Origin: Bryum argenteum | Lineage: Eukaryota > Streptophyta > Bryopsida > Bryales > Bryaceae | Reading direction: 5' to 3' | NCBI GenBank assembly: GCA_037043015.1 | Contig: CM073323.1 | Coordinates: 2,976,001 to 3,040,000 of the forward strand | Length of the DNA stretch: 64,000 nt | In this document: piece after piece, positions 4,544-39,100 of the stretch | How the letters are laid out: every line of letters begins with the position of its first letter | How positions within the stretch are numbered: the stretch's first letter is position 1 | Translations under genes and position numbers: made by a program | Notes under the pieces: model-generated | The model's database searches: none | Told to the model about the DNA's origin: nothing | What the model saw: the letters and a program-made list of their open reading frames with translations, nothing else

Positions 4544-4696
4544 CAGGGTTGTCTTATTAGACAAAGTTCCTATTCATTTGTCAGACACAATTTAAATGAG
4601 GTGTACATCTAAGACGTTTTCAATGTATTAAATGTACATCTCATCTAAATTTTGTTTGACAAATGAATATGAATTTTGTTTGATAAGACAACACTG
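4544..4696. mobile_element. hAT-type MITE (non-autonomous DNA transposon)
   Basis: A 153-bp foldback element. Its ends are CAGGGTTGTC at the left and GACAACACTG at the right, inverted copies with hAT-like CAG starts. The inverted repeat continues inward for most of each half (ATTCATTTGTC, GTACAT). It is flanked by an exact 8-bp target duplication, GTTCTAGT, at 4536-4543 and 4697-4704. Eight-bp duplications are the hAT hallmark. There is no coding capacity. Confidence 0.9.
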
Positions 4697-4881
4697 GTTC
4701 TAGTGGCTAGGTAGGAACTAGCATAGTGTGAATCCTAGAGGGGTCAGTAGTCCCGCCGATGGTGTGATGACCTCCATGCATACATCCAAGGATAGGTGAA
4801 TGAACACTCTAATCACGCCGGCCTCTATATAGGTTGGAGTTTCTCTTCTTCTACTTTGGTGTTCAAAATTTAAACAAATGA

Positions 4882-4906
4882 AACACGCAATTAAGCAATT
4901 ATGCAC
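4882..4906 (+). repeat. Left terminal inverted repeat of the large element
   Basis: 25 bp, an exact reverse complement of 16401-16425 over its full length. The base just outside differs at the two ends, so the edge is sharp. The target duplication ATGA immediately precedes it at 4878-4881. Confidence 0.9.
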
Positions 4907-5484
4907 CCGGCTATTTAAAAGTGCACTTCGGTACTACGATGGCTATTGCTTGCAAAAATGGAATTTTTTATTTTTAAACTTGATTTTTTCTGGAAAAAAA
5001 GGTGTTTTGCAAAGAATATTGTGTATTGTCAGAAGTGGTAATATAAAAAGACTTCTAATGGCATTGTAAACATATTTTTGGTATAAATCCATGTGAATAA
5101 TACAAATATTTTTGTCCAGGGATATTTGAAATGCTTAGTATATGCTACAAATTGTGTAGATTATAGTTAATATATTTTTGGTGAGCAAAATGACGCGAGC
5201 ACCAAACTGTTAATAAAAGTAGGCACCAAATTGTTCCAATGGACATTTAATAAAAATATACTCTATATTGTGCTTTGTATATATGTGGTAGAAAAGTATC
5301 TAAATACACAGATTCTAAACGTATACCAAGTTATGTATATAACTGATAATACAACTAAATTCAACCCATATGTCCATCGCAACAACACGTCTGAAAATAA
5401 TCCTTGCAATCTTGTACTATCTAGTACGTATATACACTTAGAAACACCATGTGTACACAAAACACATGGACTACGTACTAATAT

Positions 5485-8400
5485 CTAATGCGGCTTGCAA
5501 CCGGTCATCGTCGATAGCTTGGGTTTGCATTTGCGATATATTCTAATATGTGGGCCTTCGCAGATTGGATAATGCAAATGTTGCTTGGAACCCGCACTCC
5601 AAAGACATTGCGGTTTCTCCCGACTATGGCGGACATGATTCTTTCTGTTCGTCCGCCCATGAAAAAAATACATGCCTCTTTCTCTATCCAATCGTGATTC
5701 TCCCGGATGGCTCCCACAATGAATCCAAACAGTTTGCATACCGTTGTAAAGAGGATCTCGGTCCGTCAACAACTCCCCCCGTATGATTGGCCAATACCAA
5801 CAAACTTTCATCTTGATTTTATTCCGGCCTTTTCCGTCTTCAATCACCTTCCCTAAATAAAATGGAACACCCTCGTCTACTTACACGATCAACACCGAGG
5901 GCTACAAATTGTCCGAAAGGATATCGGATTGAGGATCAAATTGGGAAAAGGATCGTCGATCACTTCTTCGATCCGCTCTTTCTTCGTTCCATCAAAGATG
6001 TGATCATGAGCCGTTCTTTGTGCCCTCTACGACCGCTTGGTTAGGTGGCCTCTCTCTTCGATGACCAAAGTATCCTCTAGCCTCGAAATTTGGAAGCATC
6101 GCCACTATTTGGTCCACAATAGTAATCTCTGGTTTTGATTCATTTCGATCGTCAATAACATCTATTGATGCATCTATAGTAGGTGATGTTTCTAATACCT
6201 CGAAGGCCAAAGTCAAAGAACTATGCTCGTTGCTACGATCTTTGCTTGGAAATTCGGCTAGGTATAGTTTCAAATGTTCGGCCTCTCTTTTCGCTTCACC
6301 ATTTTTTTCCGGATGTTGGAATCTTTGAATGCACCTTTCTTTGTATGCAATAAAGTCATCCAATGCCTTCAACTCCCTTTCATCAGCTGCAAACACCTTT
6401 GCAAACGATGGTCGTTCTTCTTTATTTGGTAGCGACTGCAACGTCTTTGTCCCTAACTCAGGTCCCCATTTATCCTTGCTATAATGTTTGTGTTGTCTCG
6501 AACCTTACCGACCCCCTCTCGATTGTCCATATAGAATCGCATGTGGTGCGGAAAGGTTATGCCAACCAAGAGTCCCCACCCGTCGATGAAGTGAGGGGTT
6601 ATGAAGGACTTCCAGTTCCACACATTTTCTAAGAGTCCGGCGCTAACAAACGCCTCTTGTGGATGGATGTACCTTGTTCTATTAGACTAAGCATTTCTTT
6701 CAATGAGTCGATGTCCGACCTCTTCAACACATTAGATATACAACTAAAGCGTTGGTCGATATCTTCGTGTGTATGGCCCACTATAAGGAAAGAGAGCTCC
6801 ACCTCTTGAAAAAACCCAATCCCACCAATGAAACACATAGAGCAAAAACATGTAAATGTTTTTATTCTCTCGTGTGCGATTATCCGCTTGATACGTAATG
6901 TTGGAGGCAAAAAGCGTTTTCTCCTCTTCACATCTCCTATCACGTGCAACAATGTCTTCACCACCTGGTTGCTATATCATGTTTGTGGTGCGCGCCGAAC
7001 CACACATCGCAAATAAACCAATCCCATGTACGAGGGCTCCACACAAATGGGTCTTCACAAACCGATACTCGATGTTCTTCACGGTTTGACGCATTCTCGG
7101 TACCATGGTAGTGTTTTGATCCATGCCATCAACGATGATGCACATGTACAACTCCGGGCTGATATAGCACGACCTCTTAAATATCCAATAATCCCTCCGT
7201 TCCTCCATCTGAATACGCAGATGCATCATAAACAACTCTTTTATTTTGATCCGAGCATCTGCATTCGTGGTTCCCTCCATGGCACATTTATACTCCCAGC
7301 AGTGATAACACTTTGAAAACCTCGAGAATGAGGGTACCTGGACATGAGGATATTTGATGCGCCACATCCTCCGGAACGAGCTAATTGAAATGGTTTCTCC
7401 GTTACAAACTCTCTTCACCTCCTCGTTCACGTAATTGAATATATCAGACTTCTGAGTATTCATGGGCAGGAGAATAAGAGGCACCACTTCGTTGTCATCC
7501 TTACGAAAAATTGAACGATGAGGTTGAGGACAACCAGCTTCGTCCACAAATGATTTAAATGAGGCCTCTGCGCTGACATTCTAGTGTTCTCCCGAAGCGG
7601 GTTTGAAAGGTCATTACCGTGAATCGCCGCCACTCTTCCATATATTAAACACTCCTTCTTCAGTTGTTTAAACCGTCTTTGTGAATATCCAATGCCCAGA
7701 GCATAACAAGCATTGCAAACTTGTTTGCCATCTAACTTTGTGACAAATTTATCTCGTTGGAAACGTTCCGTCCGTGTATAAAAAGAAAGCAGCATTTGTC
7801 TCATCCAAGTACTTCGAATTGCATAAGTAGAAGCCCACGCATTATAACGCATGTCCAATAGATACCGTTCTTGAATGTCTCTCAAACAATTTTGTTTGCA
7901 TCCTCCTCGCCCTATTGCCCTTTGCACGCTTAGAAGAGATACCTTTGTAGATATACCTTCTCTAGAAGATGTCTCCCTGGAATCTCTGCTTCTTCTATTT
8001 TGCATAGAATATGGACGTCGGGCCGCTCTGACATGAATAAGCCCATCTACATGGGGCAAATCTCGGATGTTGGAAGGAGTACTTTGAGAGAATGGAGAGT
8101 TCTCATCTACGGGGTTTGAAGCTATACTACTGCGCCGAGACCTATCAGTGGATCCAGGTGTGTTGAAGTTGTCATGGAAATCAAATTCTTGTGCCAACCT
8201 CCGTACAGGTGGCGTTTGAGACCCATTCAATACGTCCTCGCCATTTTGAATGGTGGGTTCCATGGCTATCGCACGTAGATAAGACTTGTGCCAACGGATG
8301 ATCAATCCAACACACATTCCAAGACGCTCTCCCACAATCTCTCCAGTCCAATGCAATGCATCGTCTACCCTAGTGATGCGTACTGCCACCTCGGACGGGA

Positions 8401-8662
8401 ATAACTTCGATCCATGCAATTGCGCGCCAGTTTCAAATGTATACTCCCTAGTTGCCAAGCCGACAACTTCTCTTCTTTCTGATAACAATTCAAATGTCCT
8501 TCCCAATTGAGATGAAATGACCTGAGTAATACCATCTCCAGTCCGCCTTGCACGAGCTGCTCGTATTAATCGCGCTCCCACTGAACCGTTTGGATTAATG
8601 ACATCGCTTCTGTATTGGGTGTTTTGATGTACTAAAGGGATTTGGAAATTGGAGCTGTCCAT
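5485..8662 (-). pseudogene. DUF7869-like putative transposase gene, broken
   Basis: Read leftwards from an ATG at 8662 (MDSSNFQIPLVHQ). The first 400 codons include a Ser/Arg-rich linker and a Cys-containing block (VCNACYALGIGYSQRRFK) that resembles the N-terminal half of DUF7869 proteins. Further on come IVDGMDQNTT (about 7125), DNRTRENKN (about 6870) and VGHTHEDIDQRFS (about 6750). These are the three signatures I associate with that family. They could supply Asp, Asp and Glu/Asp of an RNase-H-type transposase, which is inference. The tail (about 6441-6004) has a Lys/Glu-rich segment. Roughly five frame changes or stops interrupt the reading, so the copy is inactive. Some gaps could be introns. 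DUF7869 proteins are often transposon-linked, but the family is functionally unproven. Confidence 0.7.
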
Positions 8663-10015
8663 TGTCGTTGTTGAACTAATAGGAACCTATACATTGCAAA
8701 CATGTGAAAATATGTGTGTAAGCAATAGAAAATATCATTCATTCAAACGAACATATATTCTAGGACATAAATTTTTGCTTCCAAACATGATTGTTAATGT
8801 TGGTTACTAAGTTCGTAATGATATTGTATATAATTGTTAAGATTGTTTAAAGTTGTTAAATTACTTAGGATTATCTTGTGTACTTTATTTATATATAAAT
8901 TAACGGTTTATCTACCTCTACAAACCTGTGTTGGATAAAATAATACAATGCTAAGTTTTGATTACATGGAAATAACAATAATCATGTTTGATACCTTGTC
9001 CAAGACTATGTTACACCTTAGGAATTGGATTGTTTGCGTTTCATAATACATTGCTAAAAATCGTTGATTGAAATAAAAAAAGACAATGACAACATGAAAT
9101 GGCGTCAATTTACTTTGTACCTATGGCAATTTCTATTATAAACCTACATCATGCTTGAAATGAGCGTCATAAAACCACAAAGATGGTGGTATTGTTTAGG
9201 ATAAAGGAATAATTATTGCAATGACAATGATTATAGAAAGTTACAACTTACTTATAGGTTCAATTAAATTTGCAAGAAAAAATAATATTTGCAATATTCA
9301 TTGTATGATCTATTATCATAGCGATGGATAGAATTATCATGTGTTCTTGTATGAATGCAATATATTATTGTTTGGAAAATATGGTAATTTTAAACTTTAA
9401 CTTTAACTTCTACTACATTATAAAATTGAAAGTTGAATAAAACTTGCAATCAATGATTCAATTGCACTCAAGTAGGAACAAAGTTTTATAGAAGAACAAA
9501 AAATATTAAATCAAATTGGAACTAAATTATTCCCACCTCAATGAGTTAGCTTTATAGGGCTTAGAACCAAGTGGTGTTCACACCACATGTCCATTCTTAG
9601 ACATGCTCTTCAATAGATGTAAAATATATAGACCTGGAAACATACAACAAATAAACCGGAATTTAGCAATGCAAACACTTGTGCGTTAGAGATTATTCAA
9701 CTAGTAACTTACATTTTGAGTCATCTTGGAATTTGAAAGAAAAAATAAATAAATAAATTTAATTTTCAGTCAATTTTAAGAATTAAAAAAATGATTCACA
9801 ACATACAACAAAATTTCAAGAATTTAGTGAAACAATAACTTGTAGATTACATTATTTAGCCTTCTACTAAAATCATTCAATTGTTTTCATAATTATAGAA
9901 AGTTTTTTAAAAAACTTAACATACAACAAAATTGCTATAATACAGCAATAAAAATACCTTTGATTAGACATCCCTCAACTAAAAAATGACATTATTTCAT
10001 TAAAAAAAAAGAAAA
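8663..10015. other. AT-rich non-coding centre of the large element
   Basis: About 1.35 kb, strongly A/T-rich, between the divergent genes and upstream of the transposase start at 8662. No coding sequence or repeat array is visible. It may hold the transposase promoter. Confidence 0.6.
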
Positions 10016-10079
10016 AAAAAAGAGAGGAGGTGGTAGAGGTGTTCGCCGGGCAACACCTCTACCACCTCCTCTCTTTTTT
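10016..10079. repeat. Perfect hairpin, 28-bp arms
   Basis: The arms at 10016-10043 and 10052-10079 are exact inverted copies (AAAAAAGAGAGGAGGTGG at the left) around an 8-base GC-rich loop. Perfect pairing over 28 bp in an otherwise decayed element suggests recent origin or gene-conversion upkeep. Function unknown. Confidence 0.85.
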
Positions 10080-10116
10080 CCATCCGACCTCCCCGCTTCG
10101 ATCTTCCGGCACACTT

Positions 10117-10261
10117 GCCGTTTCTTCCTCCTCCGCCCCGCTCGTGTTTTGAAGGTCTTTGTTGCCGTTTCTTCCTCCTCCGCTCTTGCTCGTGTTTCTG
10201 CAGGTTGCTATTGCCTTTTCTTCCTCCTCCGCTCTTGCTCGTGTTTCTCAAGAACGCTGCT
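10117..10261 (+). repeat. Three tandem copies of a 47-49 bp C/T-rich unit
   Basis: Units at about 10117-10163, 10164-10212 and 10213-10261 share TTTCTTCCTCCTCCGC and GCTCGTGTTT. The tract is open as protein in more than one frame, but the products are low-complexity and unlike any known protein, so it is scored as repeat or untranslated leader-like DNA. From 10262 to 10737 no gene is supported. Confidence 0.75.
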
Positions 10262-10737
10262 AGGACGATCTGTAGAGCACTAGGAGAGTTTCGTGACTTG
10301 TTGCAACCAAAAATCTTTTTGCGATTCTCCTTATCGCTTGTTCTTTGTTGTCTTAGAATCGCCGCTTGCTTCTAGTACCGAATCGCTCTTTGCTTGCTGT
10401 ACCAGATCGCCGCTTCTTTGTTGCTATCGAATCGATGCTTGCTACTTGCTGATCTTGTTGCTATTCCTCATTGCTATCATTGGTATTGTTGCTACTGTTG
10501 CGGCGTGCATTTTGGGTTCTTGTTCGCTCTTGTACAGGTACGCTACTATTCAAGTTGTCCACTTTGTACTCGATATGTTAAAATCTTCGTCTTCCTCCCT
10601 TCATCCTCTTTGTGGTCTTTGTTGCAGCCATGCAGCCGCCACCAAAGCCACCAAAATCCTAATCTTAAAACCTTAAACTCTAAAAAAATTTAAAAATCTT
10701 TTAAAAATAAAAATAATAAAAAAATTAGCAGAGATTG

Positions 10738-10765
10738 CAAGGGGTGTGCGCGCGCACACCCCTTG
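10738..10765. repeat. Perfect 28-bp palindrome
   Basis: CAAGGGGTGTGCGC followed directly by its reverse complement, with no spacer and alternating GC at the centre. It lies 660 bp right of the first hairpin. The two palindromes bracket the GC-richer, C/T-rich island in the middle of the AT-rich element. Function unknown. Confidence 0.85.
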
Positions 10766-11885
10766 AAACAATCAACCAAGTGAACTCCAATAAACATCCC
10801 ATTTACTATATTAAAGCCATTTCAAACGTCTGATACCCGCCTATGAGGGATACCCGCCCATATTGATACCCGTCATACATTATAGTTACTTGCTTAAGAA
10901 CAAGAAAAATGAAAACATTTAGCAACACATGATAGTAAAAATATTAATGTAGATATTGTAGAACTAACATCTTTCACATACAGTCGTTTGAGACTAAAAA
11001 ATATTACCTTCTTTTACGATTCCAAATTTCTAAAATTGTCTTCACTGTAAAAAGAGCATTTAACCTTGATCAAACGTGTTCACACATTTTGGTCAAGGAA
11101 AGAAAAAAATACTATTTTCTACATAAAACCTATAGATCTTCATTTAAATTTTTTTTTTTTCTAGCGAAAATTTTATGTGATAAATAAATTCTTATCAATC
11201 ATTTTGGATTTTCATTCTAAAGCATGTTGAGTTCACAAAAGATTAAAATGTGGCATAAAATTTTGTCAAATAATTTCAATCTCGATCCTTTGTATATTTG
11301 TTTTGAATATGCTACACACCTTTTCCATGTCTAGAAATTGGTTTTAAGGTAACCAACATGATCATGCCAATCATGATTTTAAAGAAGTTAGACCTTGTAT
11401 AGTGAATTTTTTTAAGCCAAGTGAAATTAAAGTGTCTTAGACCACTAAATACAATTAAGCAAATGAATTATTCTTATGATTTCAAATGCTATAATATTTT
11501 AATCCTTCCGATGCATAGTAGCCTAAAAAATTTGGTGGCTTTATATCAATGTTTATTTTAAGATTCTAGGATTAGAAGTCTTAAATTTCACTCTAAAACT
11601 AGATTTTGAAGCCACTTTTTGATAGTGATGATTTGAAGTGTTTCTTGAAGAATAATGGCCTAGGCTTTTCGGAGCTAAAGAGTCGTCAATCATAAAACAA
11701 CTTCCACATGGAGTCATATTAGAATCAAAACAAACAAAATGGCCTATGTTTGTCTATATTCACATGAACCATGTGGTCGGATGGTGAATTTTGGTATAAG
11801 TTATCAATATTTTATTGAATAGAAATCAAAACAATTGTCAAATAGACTCTAAATTACACCATATTAACCATTATGATATTGTGTT
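10766..11885. other. AT-rich non-coding, upstream of the ParB-like gene
   Basis: About 1.1 kb of low-GC sequence. Near 10837-10872 the motif GATACCCG(C/T) occurs three times. No coding region is seen. It may contain the promoter of the plus-strand gene. Confidence 0.55.
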
Positions 11886-14800
11886 CCAATGATGATCGAG
11901 GTTGTTGCCATGCCGCAACGTCGGAACCAATCGCAAAATCGACAAGGCATGGGAGAAGCGGATGGTGGATTGTAGAAGAGGACCCTCAAAGCCTTATTTG
12001 TGGATGATGCACCAACCTTTTAAAATAAGGGACCATACGTCGGCGTTAAGCAAGCGTTTTGGCGAGATTCAAGCAATTACTACCCGCACATCGTCGGCGT
12101 GATATATGTGATGTGTGTCACGATCTTGATGAAGCAATGCGAAGAAGGACTTCTCTGTCGAGACGACCTTCTTCTTGCATCCATTCCGGAATCTTTGCTT
12201 GCAAGTTAAGGTCCGTGAAATTTCTCAATACCTTGCAGAAATTTTGGTTTAATATCGCTCCCCGCAAGACGCGTACGGCGGCGCGGAGCATATGTCACAT
12301 TGTCTAGGGTTATCACGGGGAGGATGTGGCGCGCGCAATGGTTCTTATGGATGCCCATATTAAGACGTGAAGCATTACTAGAGGCGGATCCAACACATGC
12401 AACATCACAAGGTCCACCATTTGAACCAAGAGAGACGGATCCAATTCACCGTAGTTATGTTATTGGAAGTGAGTTGGATTACCACCACTTCAAAGAGATT
12501 GCACAATACGTCTGCCCGTCCAACAGATCGCGACTAACGAGCCGCCTGTAGGAAGTGTTCCTCTATGTGGAAGAGGACGTCCTTCAAAGCGGCCACGACG
12601 CGAGAGAGGCGACATAGCATCTCGGTTCAAAGGACGATCGTCGAATGTGGCTACAAGTGGTGCGAGGTCAACCGGACGAGGATCGAGGCGCGTGGTAGGG
12701 GTAGTGGGTCTACAACCATGAGGTTTCCAACAAGTGGAGCATCTCGCTTATGTGCCGAGTTCTTGGCTGAATGTATCGGCGGTGGAGGACAAGTTTTAAG
12801 AAGTCGGACCGGGGCGAAGAGGATTGATCGGAACCAAGGATGGCGTTGGAGGCCTCAACGTCAAGTAAGTTCCTAGCACCGATCCTCTCCGAAGCGAATT
12901 GCGAAAAAGGATCACTATGGGGGGACATTGTATTCGAGGTGAAGATCGACAAGATTATCCAAGTGGAGAGTCCTTTGACAAACCATCGGGTACTCTCTGC
13001 AAAGAGAGTTAGAGAGGTTTATGACTTTATGAGACATCCAGAGAACAAGACTTGTGTGAGCAAGTTGGTTCTTTGTCCGATCAAGTACATTGTGGATGTC
13101 ACTACTGACGATGGTGTGGTTCGGCGAGAAGAGGTGTCATTCCCCTCGAAAAGAGCGCAACGAGAGTTCCAACGCATATTTGATACACACGGATTAGCGT
13201 CTATTCACGGTACAACATACTCTCAGTTGTGTTGGCTTCAGGAGAGGATCATTTGGGAGCTAGTGGATGGACAACACATAGTTGCAGCCTGCAATTTTGC
13301 GAAGGAAGAGGTTGCCCAACACAAACTCTCACATGCTGAGTTTGTTAACATCTTTGAAATGCGGGAGGCAACATTTGTCTTATACGATGATCCCGCATTG
13401 TACCTAGCTGAGCGAAGTCCGCGGGTGGGTCAACAAGAAGGAATGGAATAGGACAAAATATTCCACCATGGATGAGGACTTGAGAAAGCTACGCGAGATT
13501 TGGGAGTTGTATGGGAAGCCTGATAGCTTGGTTCGTGCAGACGATGAACGCAGGGCTAAAGCTCTGGTGTGTGCGGCTAATGCAGTGCAGAAGAACCTTG
13601 TTGAGGGCAACAAAGGTATAACAATCAAGAGAGGTTAGCAAGCGGATGCATGACTTGACCATTCATGCGTTGGAATCCTCGGCGCGAGTGTTCTGAAGCT
13701 ATCCTTCAAGTGTGCAAGGACTACGAAGATGGCTATCTCTTTTATAGCAAGGAAGAGAGAGAAGAAGTGGAAGGCGTTTGCAGACAAGAACAACCTAGAT
13801 CCTACTGTGGATGTACGGGAGCATCGGAAGCGAATGACCATGAATTGGTTGAGGCCGCTGAATGTGGTTCCACAGTCTGCTTATCTACGGCTAGTCAAGT
13901 CTTGTGTAGCTAAGCCAGTGGGGGAGGACAGCCGCAGACCTCGACAATCATATTACTTTCACGCCATCAAGGATGCGTCTAGGGATCCCCGTACTATTGC
14001 AGGTGCAATTGGCCAGATCATGAGACAAGAAGCGGTTGCTAATATTACTCGTTGGTTAATGGTGTCCAACAAAGAGCGCTCACCTAATTCCATAGAAGAG
14101 TTCTTCCACATATCTCATGCGGAATTATTTTCCCAAGCAAGAAGCAAATTGATGCATTTGGCAAGGACTTGGCCAAAGACACAAAAGCCGCATGGGCTAA
14201 ACCTACACGAGAGAAGGTGTCAAGTTGGCGAGACATAAGTGAACTTATTCCTACCTCCATCAAGGTTCACTATCGGGACATTGCAACAAGAACACATGGA
14301 GAAGTGGAAGCATCGCCAGATGAAGGTGGTGCCACTCCGTCACATGGAAGTGGGTGTTCTGAGTTCGAAGGCCAACTCGAGACCAAGACACCGGATCATC
14401 TTATGGTTCGAGCTTGGAAGGATTATTTCATCCCGATGTCCAGTGATTGACACAATCGTCTTGTGGGTTGTTGATTGTCGACGTGGTGGGGAAAGCGTGG
14501 AGACGGTCGCTTGGGAAGAAGAAGCGATTCACCAAAGTTATTGCACAATTGTCGGCGTGGATGACGGGCGTTGAACAATGGAACAAGATTCTCTTTACCA
14601 CCACGTGTTTGCTAATGCCGAGTTGTTCGCGAAGCTCAAACTTCCCGGGTGGCACTCAACGACATGGATGTTGGGCATTTGGCGCAAACTCGGTTGATCG
14701 AGATGCCTCAACTTTACACAGGGGTGTCGATTCTGACAGCGGTGGAACCATTTGGAGGTGTTGTTGTTCATATGCAACACCCTGCTGATACTTCCCCAAC

Positions 14801-15641
14801 CGTAATTATGTTCGCAGGGACCGTCCCACTACCACTTGTATTTCACGATCAATGGAGTGAGACACATCAACCGTCGGAGGGTGATAGACTCGAGCGATCG
14901 CCATCCGAGCTCTCTAGATCGGTGGATGCGTATTTGCCAATTGGTTGGGGTTTGACTGCGTATAACATTACAACGGCCATTCCGACAATCCTTCATGGAG
15001 GTTTCCATGGATCGGAGATCATTGTCATTGACGATAGCCTGGAAAGGCTAAACTTCTTGTATACAAAGTTGTTTGACAACTTCCAAGGACAATTTCGATC
15101 CCTCGAGATGACAGGTGCAACAAGGAGCGCCAACGTTGGCATTTCCGGTGAAGATCCGATGAACATAGGTTCGAGAGGAAGGCGGTAGTGACGAGGACGA
15201 GCTTGGAGATGAAGCGGATACTTCTATTCCAAAGACCATACACATTGGCAAATGTACGATACCGCGTGTGATGTATGACGATGTACCCTGTACGCGATCA
15301 TAACTCATGTGACGACGGGCTTCATTCGTGCTGTGGAACCTAATGGCTTTGAGGAAGGATCGAGAGATACGGTGGTGGTTCTAGATACTCCAATTCAAAC
15401 GAGACCAATGGTGCCATCCATTCCACAATCTACGGAATCAGCGGACACCATAGCTTTCAACGAGGCCTTTGCACCAATGATGACATTTAGAGACGGCTTC
15501 TACTATAACACCGATGGCATAAGGTACACTCGCCACGGTGAGCCGGGCGATTCACGCACGAGGAGTCTCAAGTCCATCGATCTTCAAGATTCTATTGATC
15601 CCCCATGTCCGTTGCGGCAAGATGGATCGTATGGTACATGA
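11886..15641 (+). pseudogene. AT-hook and ParB-like (DGQH) protein gene of the large element, broken
   Basis: The N-terminal part is poorly preserved. Near 12559-12591 it encodes an AT-hook-like basic motif (GRGRPSKRPRR). At 12840-13451 a clean 203-codon frame carries FEVKIDKIIQVESPL, then LVLCPIKYIVDV, and WELVDGQHIVAAC (about 13254-13290). This order is expected of a ParB/sulfiredoxin-fold nuclease-like domain of the DGQH type. Conserved-looking segments continue to about 15.6 kb (KKWKAFADKNNLDP, DTIVLWVVDCRRGG, PQLYTGVSILTAVEPFGG, SEIIVIDDSLERL). The last resembles a Rossmann/methyltransferase strand-loop only weakly, and I do not assign it. About six breaks interrupt the frame. It may be a second transposition protein or cargo. 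Confidence 0.6.
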
Positions 15642-16400
15642 GGCCTATGAAGCGTCTGGTAGGACAATGGAGGAGGATGATTAGAGCATCAGAGATTTAT
15701 AAGTAGCAAGTCAATATGATGTTTAGGTGGCATGTTAGGTTTGATTGATATGTTTGAGTAAAGTATGAGATGTTTGGTTATAGTATTATGCATGTTATAT
15801 TATAGTATTTACTATCGATTCCTAAAAAATACGTTTATGAATTTTATGTATGGATTTTCATATAATATAGAGCGAGATGCTACATATTTTCTCTTGTTGA
15901 ATAGCACATGTTGGCCTTTTATCTCTTATAAAGTATGTCTATTGTATAAATGCCAAAAATAGTATATAAATGTCATATAGCAATGTACAACGTAGAAGTT
16001 CATAATCAAAATTGCATTGAATCTAAAAAGAAACACTATAGGAAGTTCAAGGACAAAATTGAATCTTTGAAATTCTTTAAATTTCAATTTTTGCACTCCA
16101 AGACGTGACGTTGTCCTTCATATTGATCCATTGGGATTTGTATTCCAAAAATTTATATGGTACACAAAATAATAAAATAGATGTTGGCAATATTTGAATA
16201 TAATAATTTGGTAGTATTTACAAAGCAATAAAACATGATTTAGCAACAAATTTGTTATTAAAAAAATACTATTTCTCGTTAGTTTAAGTTTAGTGCCTCC
16301 ACATTTAAATTTTTTTTTTTTGTGTGGAATTTTTGTTGTTTTTTTTCATTTTGGAGGAAAATGTTGTTGTTTTGACATGCCATTGAGTGCACTTGGCAAA
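15642..16400. other. AT-rich non-coding right end of the large element
   Basis: Low-GC sequence between the end of the ParB-like gene and the right terminal repeat. It has a T-run near 16311-16321 and a sub-terminal GAGTGCACTTG near-palindrome at about 16385-16395. No gene is seen. Confidence 0.6.
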
Positions 16401-16425
16401 GTGCATAATTGCTTAATTGCGTGTT
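16401..16425 (-). repeat. Right terminal inverted repeat of the large element
   Basis: 25 bp, the reverse complement of 4882-4906. It is followed at once by ATGA (16426-16429), the second copy of the target duplication. Confidence 0.9.
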
Positions 16426-16429
16426 ATGA

Positions 16430-17634
16430 GTGATAAACCTACATAGATCCTTCAATCCCGAAATGGGTTTTGAAGGTTCCTACAGCAAGAACATAGCAAG
16501 CTTGATTGTTATAGTCTCATGAATGAAGCATTGACGGTTCAAATTCTTGATAGAATAAGTACGAGGTCAAATGAATGAAGCATTGACGTTTCAAATTCTT
16601 GATAGAATAAGTACGAGGTCAAGAAAGCTCAAAGATCCTAGGATTAAATATTATAAATAATGTTTGAAATGAGTTTTATTGATCCTGAAGATCATTATTG
16701 AGGAATTAGGCAATTTTGCCTAAATTAAGATCCTGAGTTGTACTACACAGTGAAGGTAGTGGAGGTAATCAGCGAAAGTTTACTTCAAGACCTGTTGTTT
16801 TAGCCATGGCCATGTTTACTTGTAACCCTAGTCCTTTAGCCCTAACCATGTTTTGTCATGGCTGACAATGAAGCAATGAAGCAGGGTCGATTGGTAATTG
16901 CTCCCTCCATCTTAGAAAAATACCATAATTTGCTAAGAATGGATGAATTTTCTAATGAACTCATTGATATAGTTGGATATGGTTTGGATTCCCATTGATA
17001 TTGTCCTAAAAAGAGCGTTGTAAACTCCCAAATTCCAATAAATCCCTTTGAAGTGGTATATATGGAGGTGCAAACAGTCTCTAAACTTACAAAATTTTGT
17101 TAGTTTTTGACCCTCAAATGTTTCACAAGTGGCTGTTGCGAAACACTTAAAGGTCAAAATATGAAGTTTTGTCCATTTCAGTGTCAAAACTACAAAAGTA
17201 TTTGAGGAACTTTTGTGATATTATTGAAATCAAGTGATATTAAAAAAATGTCAAGATATGGACATGGATGATATTTGAGAAGTAACATGCCGTTTTAGAG
17301 GCATAAGTGATTATGCCTCCAAAATGGCACGCTTGTCAAAATAACACATGCTCCATCAAAATGGGCATATGGAATAATGCCATTGTAACAAAATTGAGGT
17401 TACCCTTTTGGTCAATCATGTGATTATATCAAGTATCACTTGTAGAATGAAGGCAAGGTTACCATGCACTTCCAATCATTCACGACCGAGTGTTTGACAC
17501 CCGAACCCAACAAGACACCTGAACCCAACAAGACCCAGCGTTGACCAAAAGACACGTACGCAAAAAACTTAGAGTTTTTTGTACTTGATAATTGATTTGA
17601 TGTTTAATTTTTCAGATCGTGTTCTAGAACAAAC
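16430..17634. other. Intergenic with a 52-bp tandem duplication
   Basis: No gene is supported. At 16519-16570 and 16571-16622 a 52-bp segment beginning ATGAATGAAGCATTGACG is repeated head to tail with a single mismatch noticed. The rest is unremarkable AT-rich DNA. Confidence 0.7.
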
Positions 17635-18898
17635 GCTTCGTGCCGTGCTTGGACGAAACACACGCCGTGTGTGGTAACCCTAGATGAAGGAACAACCGGC
17701 AGTGGCTACAGGGTCTGAACGTTCGAAGGATATTTCGTAAGACGTTCAAGGAAACCGAATTGCTCAGGAAGCGGTTTGTTGTGATTATATGCTTACAGAG
17801 TATTTACAACAATCGAAGTATTGATCCTGATCAACCCCCTCGTTTCTTGAATCGGTGAAGTGGCGCAATCGATCAAAATACATCTGACTTAGTGTGTGAT
17901 AATGATTTCAATACCTGCTCCTTATCTCGAGCATGGACTAGCTGGGTTCCGATCGAGAGAAGCAACAACGCTACCGACTATCTAGAAAGTGTGAAGAATT
18001 TTAAAAATACTCCCACCGACGGCGTTCGGCTACTCTGCGGCCACAGTTGTATGCTTACAGCCTTGAAAGTTACCTGAAAAGCTATGCAGTGCACGTGATA
18101 ATCAGAAGCATTTTCCCGTGAGGAATAACCCAGGAATGCTCTTGTACTACACCCTTAGAATGGTGTTCACTGAGGGTAATTAATGTGAAGAATGCTCTTG
18201 TACTACCCCCTTAAAATGGTGGTCACTGAGGGTTATCAATGTGAAGTCTGCGGATATTGATTTGCAGAATCACCCAAACCTGAGTTATCGATGGTCAATT
18301 CGATAATTCAATACTTTTTTGGACATTTGAGACTTCCTACTGTGATTTCAAGAGCTCTTCGGAGTCAATCTACACATTTTTCACTTTTTGAAGTTCCCTT
18401 CAGTCGACGCTAATCTTCTTGTCTACGATCAAAGGGTTGATTACGAACATGAGATTGAAAAACATTCAATGAAAACTTAAATCATAAGTCAAGGATGACC
18501 TTCCTATCTACAGTCAAGTTCTAAGTAGATCACAAACATGATATCGAGAATGAAATCAGTAAAAGTTCAAAATTAAGTAATAGGTTGAGAATTAATTTGA
18601 GAATGCAAACAGCCATGACAGGCAAGATTCGGCCGACAAACGGTGATCCACAGGAACTTATGATGGAGCTCAGCATCCCATCAAGCTCAGCTCAGTATTG
18701 ACAAACAGCTAAACTGAGTGCGCATAGCGATGTGCACATATGCTGCACCGACCTCCATAGTACCCCTTCACAGTTGTTGCGACTACATACATCATTCACT
18801 AAGGATACAACCAACTCTGCATGGACATGTATTATTCTAGTAATACCACTTTAATAGTCATGCTATGATTTTCAGAGTCAGGGCATCGGATCTGCAAT

Positions 18899-19396
18899 CT
18901 AATAGGGGCGTTCACCGGGCCAGTTGCCAGGAGGGCTGTAATTGCACGCGTGAAAGGTACCAAGACTACCACCACACTCTGCCGAAGCACACCCCAAGCT
19001 GGTGGTAGTGTTCCACACTACCTGCTTGTAATGCCCGCACTCACGGCCGGAGCTGCAAGTGTTGGTGGCGTAGTCGTAGTATACCTTCTCCGCCACCCAC
19101 CCGTTCACGGCCTCTGTTGCTGTATATCCGCCGGGTTTACTCGCAATATTCTCGCCGTAGTCCCCTCGGTCAGGATTGTGAGCCCACACACACCCAGCTG
19201 CCCATGACGCGGCCACGGAGTAAGCAGCGTCGTTCCACACCAGCGGTACCATGCCAACGTTGAGTTCGCTTCGAGCCGCGTTGTGGGCCGCCAAGTAGGC
19301 CGCTTGATCGGGCGCCTGTGCTTGTGATACGGACAGGATGGCCGCGATGGTCACGGCTACCACCACCACATATATAGCTCTGCACACAACTGCCAT
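18899..19396 (-). CDS. PR1: Pathogenesis-related protein 1 (CAP superfamily), secreted
   Basis: A 165-residue intronless protein with a signal peptide (MAVVCRAIYVVVVAVT..., likely cut after AQA near residue 28). A full CAP domain follows: AHNAARSE, GENIA, CGHYKQVVW, and six cysteines as in plant PR-1. The C-terminus CNYS-PPGNWPGERPY matches the conserved junction from which the 11-residue CAPE peptide is released in other plants. PR-1 proteins act in the apoplast, bind sterols and accompany defence. The coding region is whole, but the upstream segment matching the TATA box of the sister gene at 22253 is altered, so expression is doubtful (inference). Confidence 0.93.
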   Translation of the reverse strand: MAVVCRAIYVVVVAVTIAAILSVSQAQAPDQAAYLAAHNAARSELNVGMVPLVWNDAAYSVAASWAAGCVWAHNPDRGDYGENIASKPGGYTATEAVNGWVAEKVYYDYATNTCSSGRECGHYKQVVWNTTTSLGCASAECGGSLGTFHACNYSPPGNWPGERPY

Positions 19397-19483
19397 GACT
19401 CTTGACCAGAATGATTAATGTTGAGATAAGTTGCTGCTCTTGAACGGAATGAGTGCTGAGATGAGTCGCTCAAGGTCCCGATC

Positions 19484-19500
19484 CAATGCTTCTAAACTCG
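19484..19500 (-). promoter_or_regulatory. Degenerate TATA region of the left PR-1 gene
   Basis: On the minus strand this reads CGAGTTTAGAAGCATTGG, where the duplicated right gene reads CGAGTATATAAGAGGAATGG. The flanking GTCATATG is kept in both, so the TATA core has been lost here. Confidence 0.65.
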
Positions 19501-20204
19501 ACATATGACATCACGAGCACGCGACTTCCGCTTCCCGATTCAATCTGAGGGGGTTGAGGGGGTTCTGGTTGGAAGACTTTTTCTTTGAAGCCCACCGGTT
19601 GAACCGTTGGTGCGAATCATATTCCGAAGCATATGCATGGCGATGGTCATGGCTCGCTTAGGAAATTGAAAAAGTGTACCCAATTTCGCATGTGAAATTT
19701 CTCAACAGCGGCAAAAATATCGGCAAATACTTAGTCATGATTCGAAGAAACGTGATATATGGAATATGGTAGGTAATGTAGCACACATCGGTCTTCGATC
19801 ATTCGTCAGGTGACAAGGCACCGTGGCCTCACATGAATAAAGAAGCACTTGTGATAAATTTGCTGGGTTCTGTTCTGAGACGAAGTTGAAGAAGACAATG
19901 TCAACGAGTGGTTACTTCGTCGTCGAGATATTATGGCAAATAATCTTGATGTGTCTTATCTCAGAATTTCTTCCAACTGCCAGTTTAGAATCTTGGTCGT
20001 CACCAGCAGCATATGTTCACCAACTGTTAAAATATTTTCTCGTGCCTGCTGTTCAAAACTCATACGGATTGAGTGTTCTAACCCACGTAGTGTCGGTTGT
20101 TGTTGAAAGAGGAATGTGTTTGGACAATAGAATTGAAGTTTGAGTACCAAAATTGTCACCAGTTATGCATAATCTAATATAATGTGCAGAATATAATGTT
20201 CACC

Positions 20205-20605
20205 CGGTGTGCCGCAAACATAAAGTCTCTCAGTCGGGACCTGCCGAGATTGAATCGGTAAGAGTACGCCGCGCCCTCCTGATGTCATATGTCGAGTATT
20301 TAAGAGGAGTTAATCGGGACCTTGAGCAACTAATCTCAGCACGCCTCAGTTGACGAGTAACTTAGCAAGTGAGTTGCAAGCATGGCAGTTGTGCTGTGCA
20401 CATTGCCAGATATGTGGGGGTGCCACCGTGGCCATCCTGTTTGCATCACAAGCACAGGCGCCCGATCAAGCGACCTACTTGGCAGCCCACGTACTACGCG
20501 GCTGGAAGCGCACTCAACGTCGGTCCGCATGGTACCGCTGGTGTGGAACGACGCTGCTTACTCCGTGGCCGCGTCATGGCAGCGGGGTGCGCATTGTCCT
20601 AACAT
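20205..20605 (+). pseudogene. Truncated PR-1 pseudogene
   Basis: It lies in the spacer between the duplicated arms. It keeps the promoter (TATTTAA at about 20295-20301, after GTCATATGTCGAG) and an ATG at 20381 (MAVV). Homology continues through the signal peptide and the segment MVPLVWNDAAYSVAASW, then stops at about 20605. The frame shifts soon after MAVV, again around the AHNAARSE region, and the last 60% of the gene is missing. It cannot make PR-1. Compared with the two whole copies it is the most diverged, so it is probably the oldest duplicate or was truncated by rearrangement. Confidence 0.85.
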
Positions 20606-20823
20606 AACGAAATTGTTGTTTGTTGGTCAAGTGATGCATTCATACTAGTTCTCCCTTTAAGAATGTTATTAACAAATAAACATTGTTAAAATATAAATCA
20701 AGAAAATTTTACATGAATTTGTATTGAAATTGTTGGAATTTGAAAATCTCTTCACAAAATTATTTAACTCTTGAAATTACATACCTTCCTTAAAATTAGT
20801 TGATTTCTCCTTGTTGAGGCAGT

Positions 20824-21155
20824 ATATTTAACTAATTATGGACAAATTCATAGTCCAGAAATAATGTCGGCTGTCCGCCGATATAACCTTGAGACTCCAT
20901 CCGTAATCTTTGAAAGGTCATAACTCAGTCAATTTTTGTCCAAATGAAACATATGAGGTGTTTTTTGATATCTACAGAAAATGTAGATGTCCAAAAACAC
21001 CTCATATGTTTCATTTGAACAAAAATTGAGTGAGTTGTGACCTTTTGAAAGTCGCAGATATGGGGATGTGTCGGCTGGCCGCTGATAAAACCAAGGTTCT
21101 TCAGTAGTTGCAAAAAGTCCATAAGTTCGAAATAAGTCCATAATTAGTTAAATAT
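20824..21155. mobile_element. Foldback (MITE-like) inverted-repeat element, 332 bp
   Basis: The ends ATATTTAACTAATTATGGAC (20824-20843) and its reverse complement (21136-21155) bound a nested inverted repeat. Its inner arms are nearly perfect: CACCTCATATGTTTCATTTG at the right pairs with the left arm near 20947-20966, around the centre at about 20980. Outer parts (GTCGGCTG/CAGCCGAC) pair with mismatches. No clear target duplication was found. A transcript would form a long hairpin. Confidence 0.75.
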
Positions 21156-22153
21156 CACTGGAGTTTAAGAGTCCTGACAACTAATGAAGATCTCTATATA
21201 GGTGTCCAAGGAGAAACAAACTTGTAAGCTTGATCGTCTCAATTTCGCAAGCTAGAATGAGCGTTCAAATTAAAGTAAAGAATGGTAACACTTGTTTGTG
21301 GATAATAACTTTATAATGTATTTGTAATTTAATTTATATATTAAATTTTCATTGGTGAATGTGTAAAACTGTATTTCAAGAAGATGTAGTAATCTTCATT
21401 GTGATTGTAATGCACTTTACGGTATTGAAATCGAATCATTTTAGAGTGTAGAGGTTATGTTCGAAGTTCATAGGAAAATTGTCCCTCAGTGCTAAGTTCG
21501 TATATCATCTGGAGGGTACTGTACATACACTCCCTCCTTTCAACTAGAGCAGACAATAAGAAATAATAATCCATTCTTTTTAGTTTTGAACAGAAGGAAG
21601 GAGAGAATTTTTGGAACAGTTGGTGAACATGTGCTGTTGGTGACGACCAAGTTTCTAAACCGGCAGTTGGAAGAAATTCTAAGATAAAGCCACATCAAGA
21701 TTGATACCAATTATTTGCCATGAAATCTCGGCGACGAAGTAACCACTCGTTGACATTGTCTCCTTCAACTTCGTTTCAGAATACCTCCCAGCAAATTTAC
21801 CACTTCTCTACGCATGTGTAGGTCACGGTGCCCTGTCACCTGACGGAGTATGATCGAAGAGCCATGTGTGATACAGTAGCTACCATTTTCCATATATCAT
21901 GTTTCTTCGAATCATGACTTAGTTTTTACCGAATTTTCTGCCACTTTTGAGAAATTCAACATGCGAATTTGGGTATACTTTCCAATTTTCTAAGCGAGCC
22001 ACTACCATCGCCATGCATATGCTTCGGAATATGATTCGCATCACCGAGTGTTCACGGTTCACCCGGTGGGCTTCGGAGAAAAAGTCTTCAACCGGAATCC
22101 CTCTAATTGAATCGGGTAGCGGATGCCGCATCCTCGTGATGTCATATGCCGAG

Positions 22154-22160
22154 TATATAA
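22154..22160 (+). promoter_or_regulatory. TATA box of the right PR-1 gene
   Basis: TATATAA, 93 bp upstream of the ATG at 22253, leaving room for a leader of about 60-65 nt. It is conserved as TATTTAA in the truncated copy and lost in the left copy. Confidence 0.8.
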
Positions 22161-22252
22161 GAGGAATGGATCGGGACCTTGAGCGACTCATCTCAGCAGT
22201 CATTCCGTTCAAGAGCAGCAACTCACCTCAACAATCATTCTGGTCAAGAGTC

Positions 22253-22744
22253 ATGGCAGTTGTGTGCAGAGCTATATATGTGGTGGTGGTAGCCGTGACC
22301 ATCGCGGCCATCCTGTCCGTATCACAAGCACAAGCGCCCGATCAAGCGGCCTACTTGGCGGCCCACAACGCGGCTCGAAGCGAACTCAACGTTGGCATGG
22401 TCCCGCTGGTGTGGAACGACGCTGCTTACTCCGTGGCCGCGTCATGGGCAGCTGGGTGTGTGGGGGATCACAATCCCGACGCAGATAGCTACGGCGAGAA
22501 TATTGCGAGCACGCCCGCCGGATATACAGCAACAGAGGTCGTGAAGGGGTGGGTGGATGAAAAGGCATACTACGACTACGCCACCAACACTTGCACCGCT
22601 GTGTGTGGGCATTACACGCAGGTAGTGTGGAACACTACCACCAGCGTGGGGTGTGCTTCGGCAGAGTGTGGTGGTACTATTGGTACCTTTTGGGTGTGCA
22701 ATTACAGCCCTCCTGGCAATTATGTAAATGAACGCCCCTATTAG
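22253..22744 (+). CDS. PR1: Pathogenesis-related protein 1 (CAP superfamily), secreted
   Basis: A 163-residue protein, very similar to the copy at 18899-19396 (identical signal peptide and first 60 or so residues). The ATG at 22253 is chosen because it matches the start of the sister gene; the open frame extends upstream only through untranslated leader. The CAP landmarks are AHNAARSE, SYGENIA, CGHYTQVVW, six cysteines, and a C-terminal CNYS-PPGNYVNERPY with a CAPE-like peptide. Differences from the sister cluster in the middle (DHNPDADS versus AHNPDRGD) and tail. A good TATA box stands at 22154. This is the best candidate for the functional member of the cluster. Confidence 0.95.
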   Translation: MAVVCRAIYVVVVAVTIAAILSVSQAQAPDQAAYLAAHNAARSELNVGMVPLVWNDAAYSVAASWAAGCVGDHNPDADSYGENIASTPAGYTATEVVKGWVDEKAYYDYATNTCTAVCGHYTQVVWNTTTSVGCASAECGGTIGTFWVCNYSPPGNYVNERPY

Positions 22745-23957
22745 ATCGTGGACTTGATGATATGACTGAGAAACTGATGTCATGATCATGAGAATGGTGG
22801 TAAATAGAATAATACTTGTCCATGCAGAGTTGGTTGCATCCTTAGTGAATGATGTATGTAGTCGCAACAACTGTGAAGGGGTACAATGGAAGTCGGTGCA
22901 GCATATGTGCACATCGCTATGTGCAATCAGTTTAGCTGTTTGTTAATACTGCTCAGCTTGATAGGTTCGTGGTATGCTGAGCTCCATCATAAGTTCCTGT
23001 GGATCACCGTTTGTCGGCCGGATCTTGCCTGTCATGGCTGTTAGCTTTCTCAAATTAAATCTCAATCTATTACTTGATTTTGAACTTTTTATCAATTTCG
23101 TTCTCTGTATCATGTTTGTGATCTACTTAGAACTTGACTGAAGATAGGAAAGTCATCCTTGACTTAAGATTTAAGCTTTCATTGAATGTTTTTCAATCTC
23201 AGATTCGTAATCAACCCTTTGATCGTAGACAAGAAGATTAGCGTTCCAGACTGAAGGGAACTTCAAAAAGTGAAAAATGTGTAAATTGACTCCGAAGAGC
23301 TCTTGAAATCACAGTAGCAAAAGTCTCAAATGTCCAAAAAAGTATTGAATTATCGAATTGACCATCAATAACTCATGTTTGGGTGATTCTGCAACTCGAT
23401 TTTCACTGACTTCACATTGATAACCCTCAGTGAACACTATGTTAAGGGTGTAGTCCAAGAGCATTCCCGGGTGTATTCCTCACGGGAAAATGCTTCTGAT
23501 TATCACGTGCACTGCATAGCTTTTCATGTAACTTTCAAGGCTGTAAGCATCCTACTGTGGCTGCAGAGGAGCCGGAACGCCGTCGGTGGGAGTATTTTAT
23601 AAATTCTTCGCACTTACTAGAAAGTCGGTAGCGTTGTTGCTTATCTCGATCGGAACCCAGCTAATCCATGCTCGAGATAAGGAGCAGGTATTGAAATCAT
23701 TATCACACACTAAGTCAGATGTATTTTGATCGATTGCGCCACTTCACCGATTCAAGAAACGAGGGGGTTGATCAGGATCAATACTTCGATTGTTGTAAAT
23801 ACTCTGTAAGCATATAATCACAACAAATAGCTTCCTGAGCAATTCGATATTCTTGAACTCAAACGTCTTACGAAATATCCTTCGAACGTTCAAACCCTGT
23901 AGCCACTGCCTGTTGTTCCTAGGGTTACCACGTTTCTTCCAAGCATGCCGAAGTATG

Positions 23958-35652: not shown

Positions 35653-36133
35653 TGTTGCAGTTTACTCCTTCTGTTGGTACACGATTGACTTACTGTTAAT
35701 ATATTAATATATATATATAGCCGTATACACACTCATACATAGTGATCAGCTGGTAGTGGTGGTAGTACATGCACGTGCCAGCATTCGAATTTGGCAGTGC
35801 AATCATACTAGTGACCCCCCGTCAACTGTAGCCGCCCTGCTCTGATCAGTACTAGTACCGTGTAGCATCCATGCATGATGCTTTCTCTCTGTAGCAGTAT
35901 ATATGAAGCCCCAACCTCTGTGCACAGTGTGAGTGTGCGTGACAGTGGGAGCATTTCTACTGTGTGTCTGCTTTCATACCACTAAGTAAAAGCGTTTTGA
36001 CTTTTGAACATTGTGTTGTCTTGTAGTGCTTGTGAGTATGGCAAATACTCTGTCTGTTGAAGTTTGCTTGTGAGTATAGCCAATGCTCAGTTTGGTTGAA
36101 GTTCATGTCTGTTCGTGTCTGTATCCTTCTAAA
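35653..36133 (+). repeat. 5' LTR of the young Copia element
   Basis: 481 bp starting TGTTGCAGTTTACTCC. It differs from the 3' LTR only by one extra TA in a dinucleotide run. It ends in CTTCTAAA, not the usual CA; the right edge is set by the target duplication. Confidence 0.9.
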
Positions 36134-36147
36134 GGTTATGGGCCCAC
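36134..36147 (+). other. Primer-binding site matching the anticodon arm of initiator tRNA-Met
   Basis: GGTTATGGGCCCAC is the exact complement of GTGGGCCCATAACC, the anticodon stem-loop of plant initiator tRNA-Met (contains the CAT anticodon). It sits directly at the 5' LTR edge. This is the half-tRNA priming type known from Drosophila copia. The tRNA sequence is from memory. Confidence 0.8.
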
Positions 36148-39100
36148 TCTTTTTTCCTCTCACTCTGATCGAAGTTGCAAATTTCGAATAGTAACATACT
36201 GTCATTAGTCACGCACTGTGAAGGCGTGGCGAAAGAGTGTTGTCAAGATACCTGTAACTTTGTGTCAATTAGCAAGGGGACGCCTTTCTTTTCCAAGAAT
36301 GGATGCAAACGCTGAGTTACGTAATGTGAAAAGCTACAATGGGCAGAACTTTCACTTGTGGAAGTTCCAGCTCCGAGCCATCCTACTTGGGCAAGACCTT
36401 ATGGGTATTGTCGAAGGAACAGTACCGATGCCAACAGATGTCACTGCGCGAGCGGAATGGATCAGAAAGGATAATCAGTGCATCTCTCTTCTCTGTAAAG
36501 CTGTAGACGAGTCTGTCCTAGAAATTCTCATGAATTGTAGCACGTCCAAAGAAATTTGGGACAAGCTCAAACTGTTGCACGATCAATCCGCTCATGAGTC
36601 TGTACATCACATCCAACAGCGTTTCTACGAATGTTGAATGGAGAGCACAGACACTATAGCCTCATTCTTAGGCAAGCTTGAACTGATCAAAAGCTCGCTT
36701 ATTAATGCAGGTGATAATTCTATCACTGATGCGAGTTTGATAGCTAAGGTTCTTGCGAACCTCCCGGCCAGTCGTTACAGTGCCTTTTTGTCGGCATGGG
36801 ACAATGTCGAGGATGGGTCGAGGACCCTCAACAACCTCACTATCCGTTTATTGCGCCACGAAACGAGGTTGAAGAACGAAGACAAAGAAGAAGAGAAGGT
36901 GGCAGTGGCGTACGCAACGGCTTACAGCAAGCGACCCAACAGCTCTGGCAGCCTCGCTCCATCTCAATCACAAGGTAGCCGCCCATCACTCACGTTTGAT
37001 CAACGTCAGGAGCGCAGAAGAGAGATTCATGAGCGAAAGAAGGTTACTCTTTGTTGGAACTGCAAACAGCTAGGTCATTGGGCACGAGAATGTCCTCTCA
37101 ATGGGAACGACGGTGGCCTCTCCGATCCACTTGAAGAGCCAAAAACAAGCATACAGCCATCGACTCAACTTCCGACACCGTCAAGCCATCGAGCATACAT
37201 GACAGCAATCACTGCTGCAGACTTCTCATCCTGGTATGTTGACAGCGGTTGCACGGATCATATGACCAATGTCAACACCTACTTTTCGACCTATACAGAC
37301 ATCACCAGCGAGAAGCGTACCGTTCAAGGGGTTGGCGGCATCGTCTTGGAGGTGGTCGGCACAGGCAGTATCAATGTCCAAGTACATCTCGACAACACCG
37401 AAGAATTTGCTACACTCACAGAAGTCCTATATGTCCCAAAGTTGGGGACCAGTTTGTTTTCATCCCAGAAAGCTGCTCAGAAGAATGTCGATACGATCAC
37501 ATCAAAGTTCTCATGTTGCCTAGTGACCCAATCAGGACAGATCGTCATGAAAGGTATGCTAGTCAACAAGCTTTACAAACTGTTGATTTCTCCTCTGCTG
37601 CCCAACCGAGTAGTTGCACTTCACGTTGGCTCTTTTGGTATATCAACCAGAAAAGAGGGTCTCCAATCGTTGGACACGTGGCATAAGAGACTCGCTCATG
37701 TGCATCACGATATGATAAGGAGGATGGCATCGCACAACACAGTCGAGGGACTTCTTTTGACTGGAAAACCTGGAGTACACCAGTTTTGTAACGGGTGTGC
37801 ATATGGAAAAATCCGAAGAAGCAGCTTTCCATTTAACGAGAAACGCGAGAAAGCCAGTGCTGTAGGTGCTCTTATACACTCTGACATCTGCGGGCCGATG
37901 AGCACACCTACTGTTAGCGGAGCAAAGTATTTCATACTTTTTAAAGATGATGCTACTGGTTATAGGGTGGTCGAGCTTTTGAAGCGGAAGTCTGACGCTC
38001 TGAGTTGCTTCAAAGTTTTCGTCAACCAGCTTCGACGAGAGACACGCTCAACAGTCAACAGGCTCCGTTCAGATCGTGGCTCCGAGTTTACGAGCTTGGC
38101 ATTTCAAGAGTTCTGCAACCAACAAGGCATTGCACAAGAGTTGACCACCGTCTACACACCGGAGCAGAACGGAGTTGCCGAACGAGATAACAGAACCATC
38201 ATGGAATCTGTCAGAAGTATGATCTACAACGCCAGCGTTCATTTGAGATTTTGGAGGGAGGCCCTACACACCGCAGTGTACTGTTTGAACAGGTCAGGGA
38301 CTCGAATGCTGGATGGTCAAACACCCTTTGAAAAGTGGCACAATATTAGACCTTCGGTATCACACATGCGAATCTTTGGGGCCGATGCTTTCGTATTAGT
38401 TCCGAAGGAGTTGCGTGCAAAACTTGATCCGAAAAGTACACGAGGAATCTTCATGGGCTACAGCCGTCACAGCAAAGCCTATAGAGTTTGGGTGAATAGC
38501 TCGCAGAAGATTGTGGAATCACGAGACGTCATCTTCGATGAATCTAGCGTGCTCACTGGAGTTTATGCCACCACGCCCGATCAAGCACCGGTTCGAATTC
38601 TCCCTGTGACCACTTTGCCCTCAGAAAATGCTTCACCTTCATTGTTTTCTAGGCACTTTGTACCGGATGCTGCTTTGCTCCCTGCTGTTGATCAGCCACA
38701 ACTTGCCGCTGTTCAAGTTGATCTCGTACTTACTCCAAGAGTTGATTCTGAGCAAGAGATGGAGTTACCACCAGAAGATACCAGTGATGATCTACCTCCT
38801 AGCGATCCAGTGAACAACTTCAGTACCCTCGGTGATCAAGGAGGCAAACAAGAAATGATTGGTCCGATTTTCAGCTCTGATGGCGAACAGCATGAAGAAA
38901 TCTTTGGTGGCCCTCGCAACCCATGCGATAGCACGCTTGCAATTTGAGAAGACGTTACGCTTGCCGATGAAGAAGTTGGCTCGTTCAATTTCGAGCTCGA
39001 GCCGAGTGAGTCGACAATCCCACCAGGAGCGGTACTTTCAGAGCCAACAAAATCAGTGGGAGAGATTCATGACACAACAAGCCATGCATCCGCAGATGAA

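Follow-up and report, generated by a model that had tools for sequence, protein, structure and literature searches.

We report on a candidate mobile element at positions 4882–16425 of a 64,000-nucleotide stretch of the Bryum argenteum genome (assembly GCA_037043015.1, contig CM073323.1, positions 2,976,001 to 3,040,000, forward strand; hereafter the window). The element has the appearance of an old 11.5-kb cut-and-paste DNA transposon in a plant genome, broken inside but with clean boundaries. We think it rather likely to be a decayed Sola-like DNA transposon with the two-gene layout known from Ectocarpus Sola1, because its target-site duplication (TSD) is of Sola length, its size and terminal inverted repeats (TIRs) lie in the Sola range, its two genes occupy opposite strands, and the second of these may carry a ParB-like motif. 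An original prediction, made from the sequence alone, had described a DNA transposon bounded by TIRs, in which a transposase candidate and a second gene are divergently arranged, and the TIRs, the TSD and a match to the DUF7869 domain bear this out.

Ends of the element and their probability by chance

The boundaries of the element are as follows.

4878–4881: left TSD, ATGA, by direct reading
4882–4906, plus strand: left TIR, 25 bp, from inverted-repeat and motif searches
16401–16425, minus strand: right TIR, 25 bp, from inverted-repeat and motif searches
16426–16429: right TSD, ATGA, by direct reading

The TIR, AACACGCAATTAAGCAATTATGCAC, is identical at 25 of 25 positions in its two arms, whose outer ends delimit an element of 11,544 bp. 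The element starts with AACACG and its ends read AA..TT. When direct repeats of 2–10 bp were sought at the flanks, only a length of 4 gave a match (ATGA), so that both the perfect TIRs and the ATGA duplication of the original prediction hold. The TIR occurs twice in the window at up to three mismatches and was absent from 100 shuffled sequences.

We consider it very improbable that the element is a chance composite, in which the relic of a DUF7869 gene lies between coincidental inverted repeats. The presence of a single copy in the window would suit such an accident. Against it, we collected all maximal exact inverted repeats of at least 13 bp with arms at least 300 bp apart and outer ends at most 30 kb apart (n = 89), and only one of the 89, the TIR pair of the element, was flanked by a match of at least 4 bp, here an exact 4-bp TSD. 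The longest exact arm in 40 first-order Markov simulations measured 14–18 bp, as compared with 25 bp in the element. The statement that chance is very unlikely therefore stands. Many inverted pairs in the window are longer than these TIRs; among the 25 inverted pairs listed, the other 24 all fall within an inverted duplication at 17.7–23.9 kb and have no flanking match.

The window contains one TIR pair, and blastn (E 0.01) found no other copy of any part of the element in the rest of it. There was also no empty site within the window, where the joined flanks matched only themselves, a nearby foldback and one 24-bp stretch.

Each end is accompanied by a short palindrome.

4921–4926: GTGCAC, beginning at base 40 of the element, a putative transposase-binding site
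16387–16392: GTGCAC, beginning at base 34 from the right end

GTGCAC occurs exactly twice in the 11,544 bp, once near each end. It was picked after the ends had been inspected and is thus a lead only.

Two divergent genes and their decay

The element carries two genes that point away from each other, with these features.

5485–8662, minus strand: broken transposase-like gene with a DUF7869 domain, its end near 5485 set by eye
6501–7064, minus strand: DUF7869 domain (PF25273), residues 533–723 of the read-through protein, in five frame pieces
7116–7133, minus strand: VDGMDQ, proposed to hold the first catalytic Asp
6858–6890, minus strand: QADNRTRENKN, proposed to hold the second catalytic Asp
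6755–6778, minus strand: GHTHEDID, proposed to hold the third acidic residue
12252–15185, plus strand: broken second gene, divergent from the DUF7869 gene, in 13 pieces, with no Pfam match
12572–12601, plus strand: RGRPSKRPRR, an AT-hook-like stretch seen by eye, with no profile match
13263–13289, plus strand: VDGQHIVAA, a ParB-like motif seen by eye, unconfirmed by searches

On the minus strand, coding sequence could be traced from 8662 to about 5485 without introns, with the reading frame shifting repeatedly. The DUF7869-like gene of the original prediction was recovered in Pfam as PF25273, both from a single piece (79.3 bits, E 3.6e-22) and from pieces joined by X (128.3 bits, E 3.6e-37, a score somewhat raised by the selection of the read-through pieces by eye). 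The frame changes at all four junctions between the five pieces of the domain, which amounts to at least four frameshifts inside it. Pfam assigns no function to DUF7869.

Profile searches covered 10 pieces in Pfam, 10 in NCBIfam, 7 in PHROGs and 6 in PADLOC. The Pfam search of these 10 pieces and of the two read-through proteins gave no match to an integrase core or to a CACTA-type transposase. Pieces of the minus-strand gene gave hits below the Pfam cut-offs to PDDEXK_1 (E 0.067), PIG-H (E 0.079) and PUS7L_N (E 0.11), which we took as chance, as we did a weak Interleukin-7 match (E 0.26).

Relatives of the DUF7869 gene were sought in other collections. None was confirmed among 14, 3 and 4 pattern matches in viral contigs or among 45 in prokaryote genome contigs, and its pieces had no match to plasmids up to E 1. 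The DNA pattern for GHTHEDID was found neither in viral nor in genome contigs, and viral contigs contained neither the 20-base TIR core nor a presumed Sola-type motif. No DUF7869 match was obtained in plasmid F or in 14 control genomes, a result that is uninformative. The collections scanned include no plant genomes, so that the lack of anything confirmed in viral or prokaryote contigs is expected for a plant element and says little.

The second gene, on the plus strand, is likewise broken: its frame changes at 10 of the 12 junctions between its 13 pieces, and open frames running on to 15641 may belong to it. Two divergent genes had been predicted and both were found (minus strand from 8662 to about 5485, plus-strand pieces over 12252–15185), the frame breaks in each having been overlooked. 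As for the AT-hook and ParB-like character that had been given to the plus-strand gene, the motif strings can be seen by eye but the searches did not confirm them. Pfam gave nothing for its read-through protein up to E 10, and its pieces were without a match up to E 1 in Pfam (five pieces), NCBIfam (five) or PADLOC (four). PHROGs returned one match for three plus-strand pieces, to a family of no known function (E 0.021); this and a PHROGs helicase match (E 0.0087), from the seven pieces queried there, were weak and taken as chance.

The ParB-like piece was examined further. Seven PDB sequences, sensor kinases and a GTP-binding protein, matched it at E 0.16–0.61 (best 0.16, a sensor kinase), and were also attributed to chance. 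With tblastn it returned 45 phage records (the 20 listed of the 45 at E 4–6) and two plasmid records (E 5 and 9), and its three pattern matches in viral contigs were not confirmed. Alignment with hhalign to P1 ParB, P1 Dmt and F SopB gave a probability of at most 0.2%. AlphaFold, run on this piece alone without relatives, gave a mean predicted local distance difference test (pLDDT) of 36.3; the fold failed and was not used. The C-terminal part of the gene matched nothing in phages or PDB. An N4C/N6A DNA-methyltransferase domain was not found in the gene, which is broken, so that such a domain could have been lost; the pattern of methyltransferase motif IV, [DNS][PVIL]P[YWF], is absent from the plus strand within it. 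A methyltransferase-like tail at about 14.9–15.1 kb, suspected by eye, was supported by no test and is not claimed.

The interval between the two genes holds a hairpin at 10016–10079, with perfect 28-nt arms and an 8-nt loop, adjoined by a pyrimidine-rich 49-bp tandem repeat at 10115–10252.

Because of the frameshifts within the DUF7869 domain, at least four in number, the copy is dead or movable only in trans. Judging from its sequence, it makes no working transposase. Poor sequence quality was rejected as the source of the frameshifts, and sequencing error is unlikely, in view of a copia element at 35709–41433 of the window: a single frame of 1,425 codons, one internal stop and the terminal one included, runs through it with no frameshift, and its long terminal repeats are identical over 425 bp. 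This copia element is nearly intact and was probably inserted recently, given the identical repeats and the single internal stop. Perfect TIRs combined with broken genes fit two histories alike: decay after insertion, or mobilization in trans of a copy that was defective beforehand.

Beyond what is observed directly, namely clear boundaries, a TSD and a broken gene on each strand, we infer the following course of transposition. The DUF7869 protein would be a DDD/E transposase with an RNase-H fold that bound the TIRs, and perhaps also the subterminal GTGCAC sites. Excision of the element by this protein and its insertion at a staggered 4-bp cut would have produced the ATGA duplication. The product of the opposite-strand gene may have served as an accessory protein that bound DNA through AT-hook and ParB-like parts, comparable to the one reported for Ectocarpus Sola1-1; a DNA-methyltransferase part, perhaps present at one time, would have marked the element. 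The copy would then have decayed after insertion, or have moved in trans when it was already defective.

Placement among DNA transposon superfamilies

A Sola relative appears more probable than a wholly new kind of element, and within Sola the type is probably Sola1-like. The DUF7869 and Sola transposases would then be one family, a supposition in line with the match in layout. In the excerpts of the literature on which we draw, Sola elements encode a DDD transposase, duplicate 4 bp of target and have TIRs of 11–1124 bp and sizes mostly of 2–9 kb, some exceeding 15 kb; they occur in plants such as Physcomitrella (PMC10741241). Sola1 is reported from Physcomitrella and Sola also from Capsicum (PMC9033089), and a fern assembly (Ceratopteris) contains 2739 Sola elements (PMC6890710). 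The ATGA on both sides of our element has the 4-bp length of Sola TSDs, and its TIRs (25 bp) and size (11,544 bp) fall within the published ranges, which is a weak indication. Like these plant elements it has a plant host; it differs in its second gene, as the excerpts mention no accessory gene for the elements of Physcomitrella, Capsicum or Ceratopteris.

The closest published layout is that of Sola1-1_Ec32, a 21.5-kb element of the brown alga Ectocarpus, in which a 1104-aa ParB-like/DNA-methyltransferase protein is encoded on the strand opposite the transposase (PMC12477816). Both are large DNA transposons with a second gene opposite the transposase. The likeness is partial in that the second gene of Sola1-1_Ec32 has a ParB-like domain, where ours has a motif seen by eye. 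In the giant families of the Ectocarpus genome, transposase genes are frequently predicted pseudogenes, which implies movement in trans (PMC12477816), and the broken transposase gene described here resembles them. The two elements differ in length (21.5 kb versus 11.5 kb), and ParB-like and methyltransferase domains have been identified in the algal protein, with which ours is compared by layout. With 4-bp TSDs, plant hosts, sizes above 15 kb and a ParB-like gene on the opposite strand all present in the excerpts on Sola, we find the earlier view unsupported that the element fits no nameable superfamily and is a strong candidate for an undescribed one.

Several points weigh against a Sola assignment. 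No search named DUF7869 as a Sola transposase, and the putative link between the two is drawn from a matching layout. The ParB and methyltransferase assignments found no support in any search made, with the motif IV pattern missing from the plus-strand gene and the ParB-like fold having failed (pLDDT 36.3). There is one copy only, with no second in the window or in the scanned viral, prokaryote and plasmid collections, which contain no plant genomes. Sola is, as far as the excerpt goes, seemingly uncommon in flowering plants (PMC10741241).

A separate DDE/D superfamily, in which DUF7869 transposases form their own lineage outside Sola, make 4-bp TSDs and come with a divergently arranged pair of genes, seems to us unlikely, if worth weighing. 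The DUF7869 domain match is clear (128.3 bits), but the Pfam family has no function and so names no superfamily. The term DUF7869 was not found in the open-licence literature searched, and searches of Pfam, NCBIfam and PADLOC assigned the second gene to no family, both of which would suit a separate lineage. An absent name, however, is no evidence for a new superfamily, and in TSD length, size, strand layout and a possible ParB-like companion the element conforms to the excerpts on Sola and Sola1. An extended form of this idea, which we regard as doubtful, holds that DUF7869 proteins are transposases of a distinct superfamily making 4-bp duplications, whose plant members would have a divergent AT-hook/ParB-like partner that binds or marks the element, in the layout of giant algal transposons. 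To our knowledge, a two-gene system with an AT-hook/ParB-like partner has not been described in land plants.

We judge it improbable that the element falls into a different known TIR superfamily that duplicates 4 bp, be it Ginger or, among the relatives of CACTA, a Chapaev type. Chapaev makes 4-bp TSDs, and CACTA/EnSpm ends begin with CACTA/G. In favour of this possibility, Ginger is described in excerpt as having 4–6 bp TSDs and as being reported in plants (PMC10741241), and red algae are described as having giant EnSpm elements that carry accessory genes (PMC12477816). In contrast, no integrase-core or CACTA-type profile matched the 10 pieces or the two read-through proteins, whereas the integrase core was detected in the copia frames of the window. 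The same Ginger excerpt gives TIRs of 40–270 bp and TG..CA ends (PMC10741241), as opposed to 25 bp and AA..TT here, and the Gypsy-type integrase of Ginger is without a match in the Pfam searches. The element also lacks a Pfam match to the CACTA-type transposase, and its TIR, starting with AACACG, does not have CACTA/G ends.

If the Sola-like reading is true, the uncharacterised Pfam family DUF7869 would gain a function and a superfamily. It would also suggest ParB-like transposon accessory genes in the host plant lineage, beyond the brown, green and red algae for which the excerpts report them (PMC12477816). If DUF7869 is not Sola, it would represent a transposase superfamily without a name. 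In both cases one dead copy amounts to a lead and does not prove the point.

Surroundings of the element

The window reads as plant DNA from its protein frames, which include copia, U-box, ARM, CAP/PR-1, RING and a Dof-type zinc ribbon. Immediately beyond the left end of the element, at 4544–4696, lies a foldback with 75-nt arms (84% complementary) and a 3-nt loop, which looks like a small miniature inverted-repeat transposable element unrelated to the transposon. About 90 bp to the right of the element there is a 52-bp tandem duplication (16519–16622, 98% matches), and the inverted duplication further on (17716–23892), with exact stretches of up to 163 bp, surrounds the CAP/PR-1 gene. A decayed or cut-off copia element at 2–2397 on the minus strand is represented by gag/integrase sequence in two overlapping frames. 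Of two other open reading frames, that at 42709–43476 encodes the Dof-type zinc ribbon (PF02701, E 8.8e-9), which appears doubled by eye, and that at 49199–50221 (340 aa) has no Pfam match at E 0.01 and contains a 63-bp (21-aa) tandem repeat.

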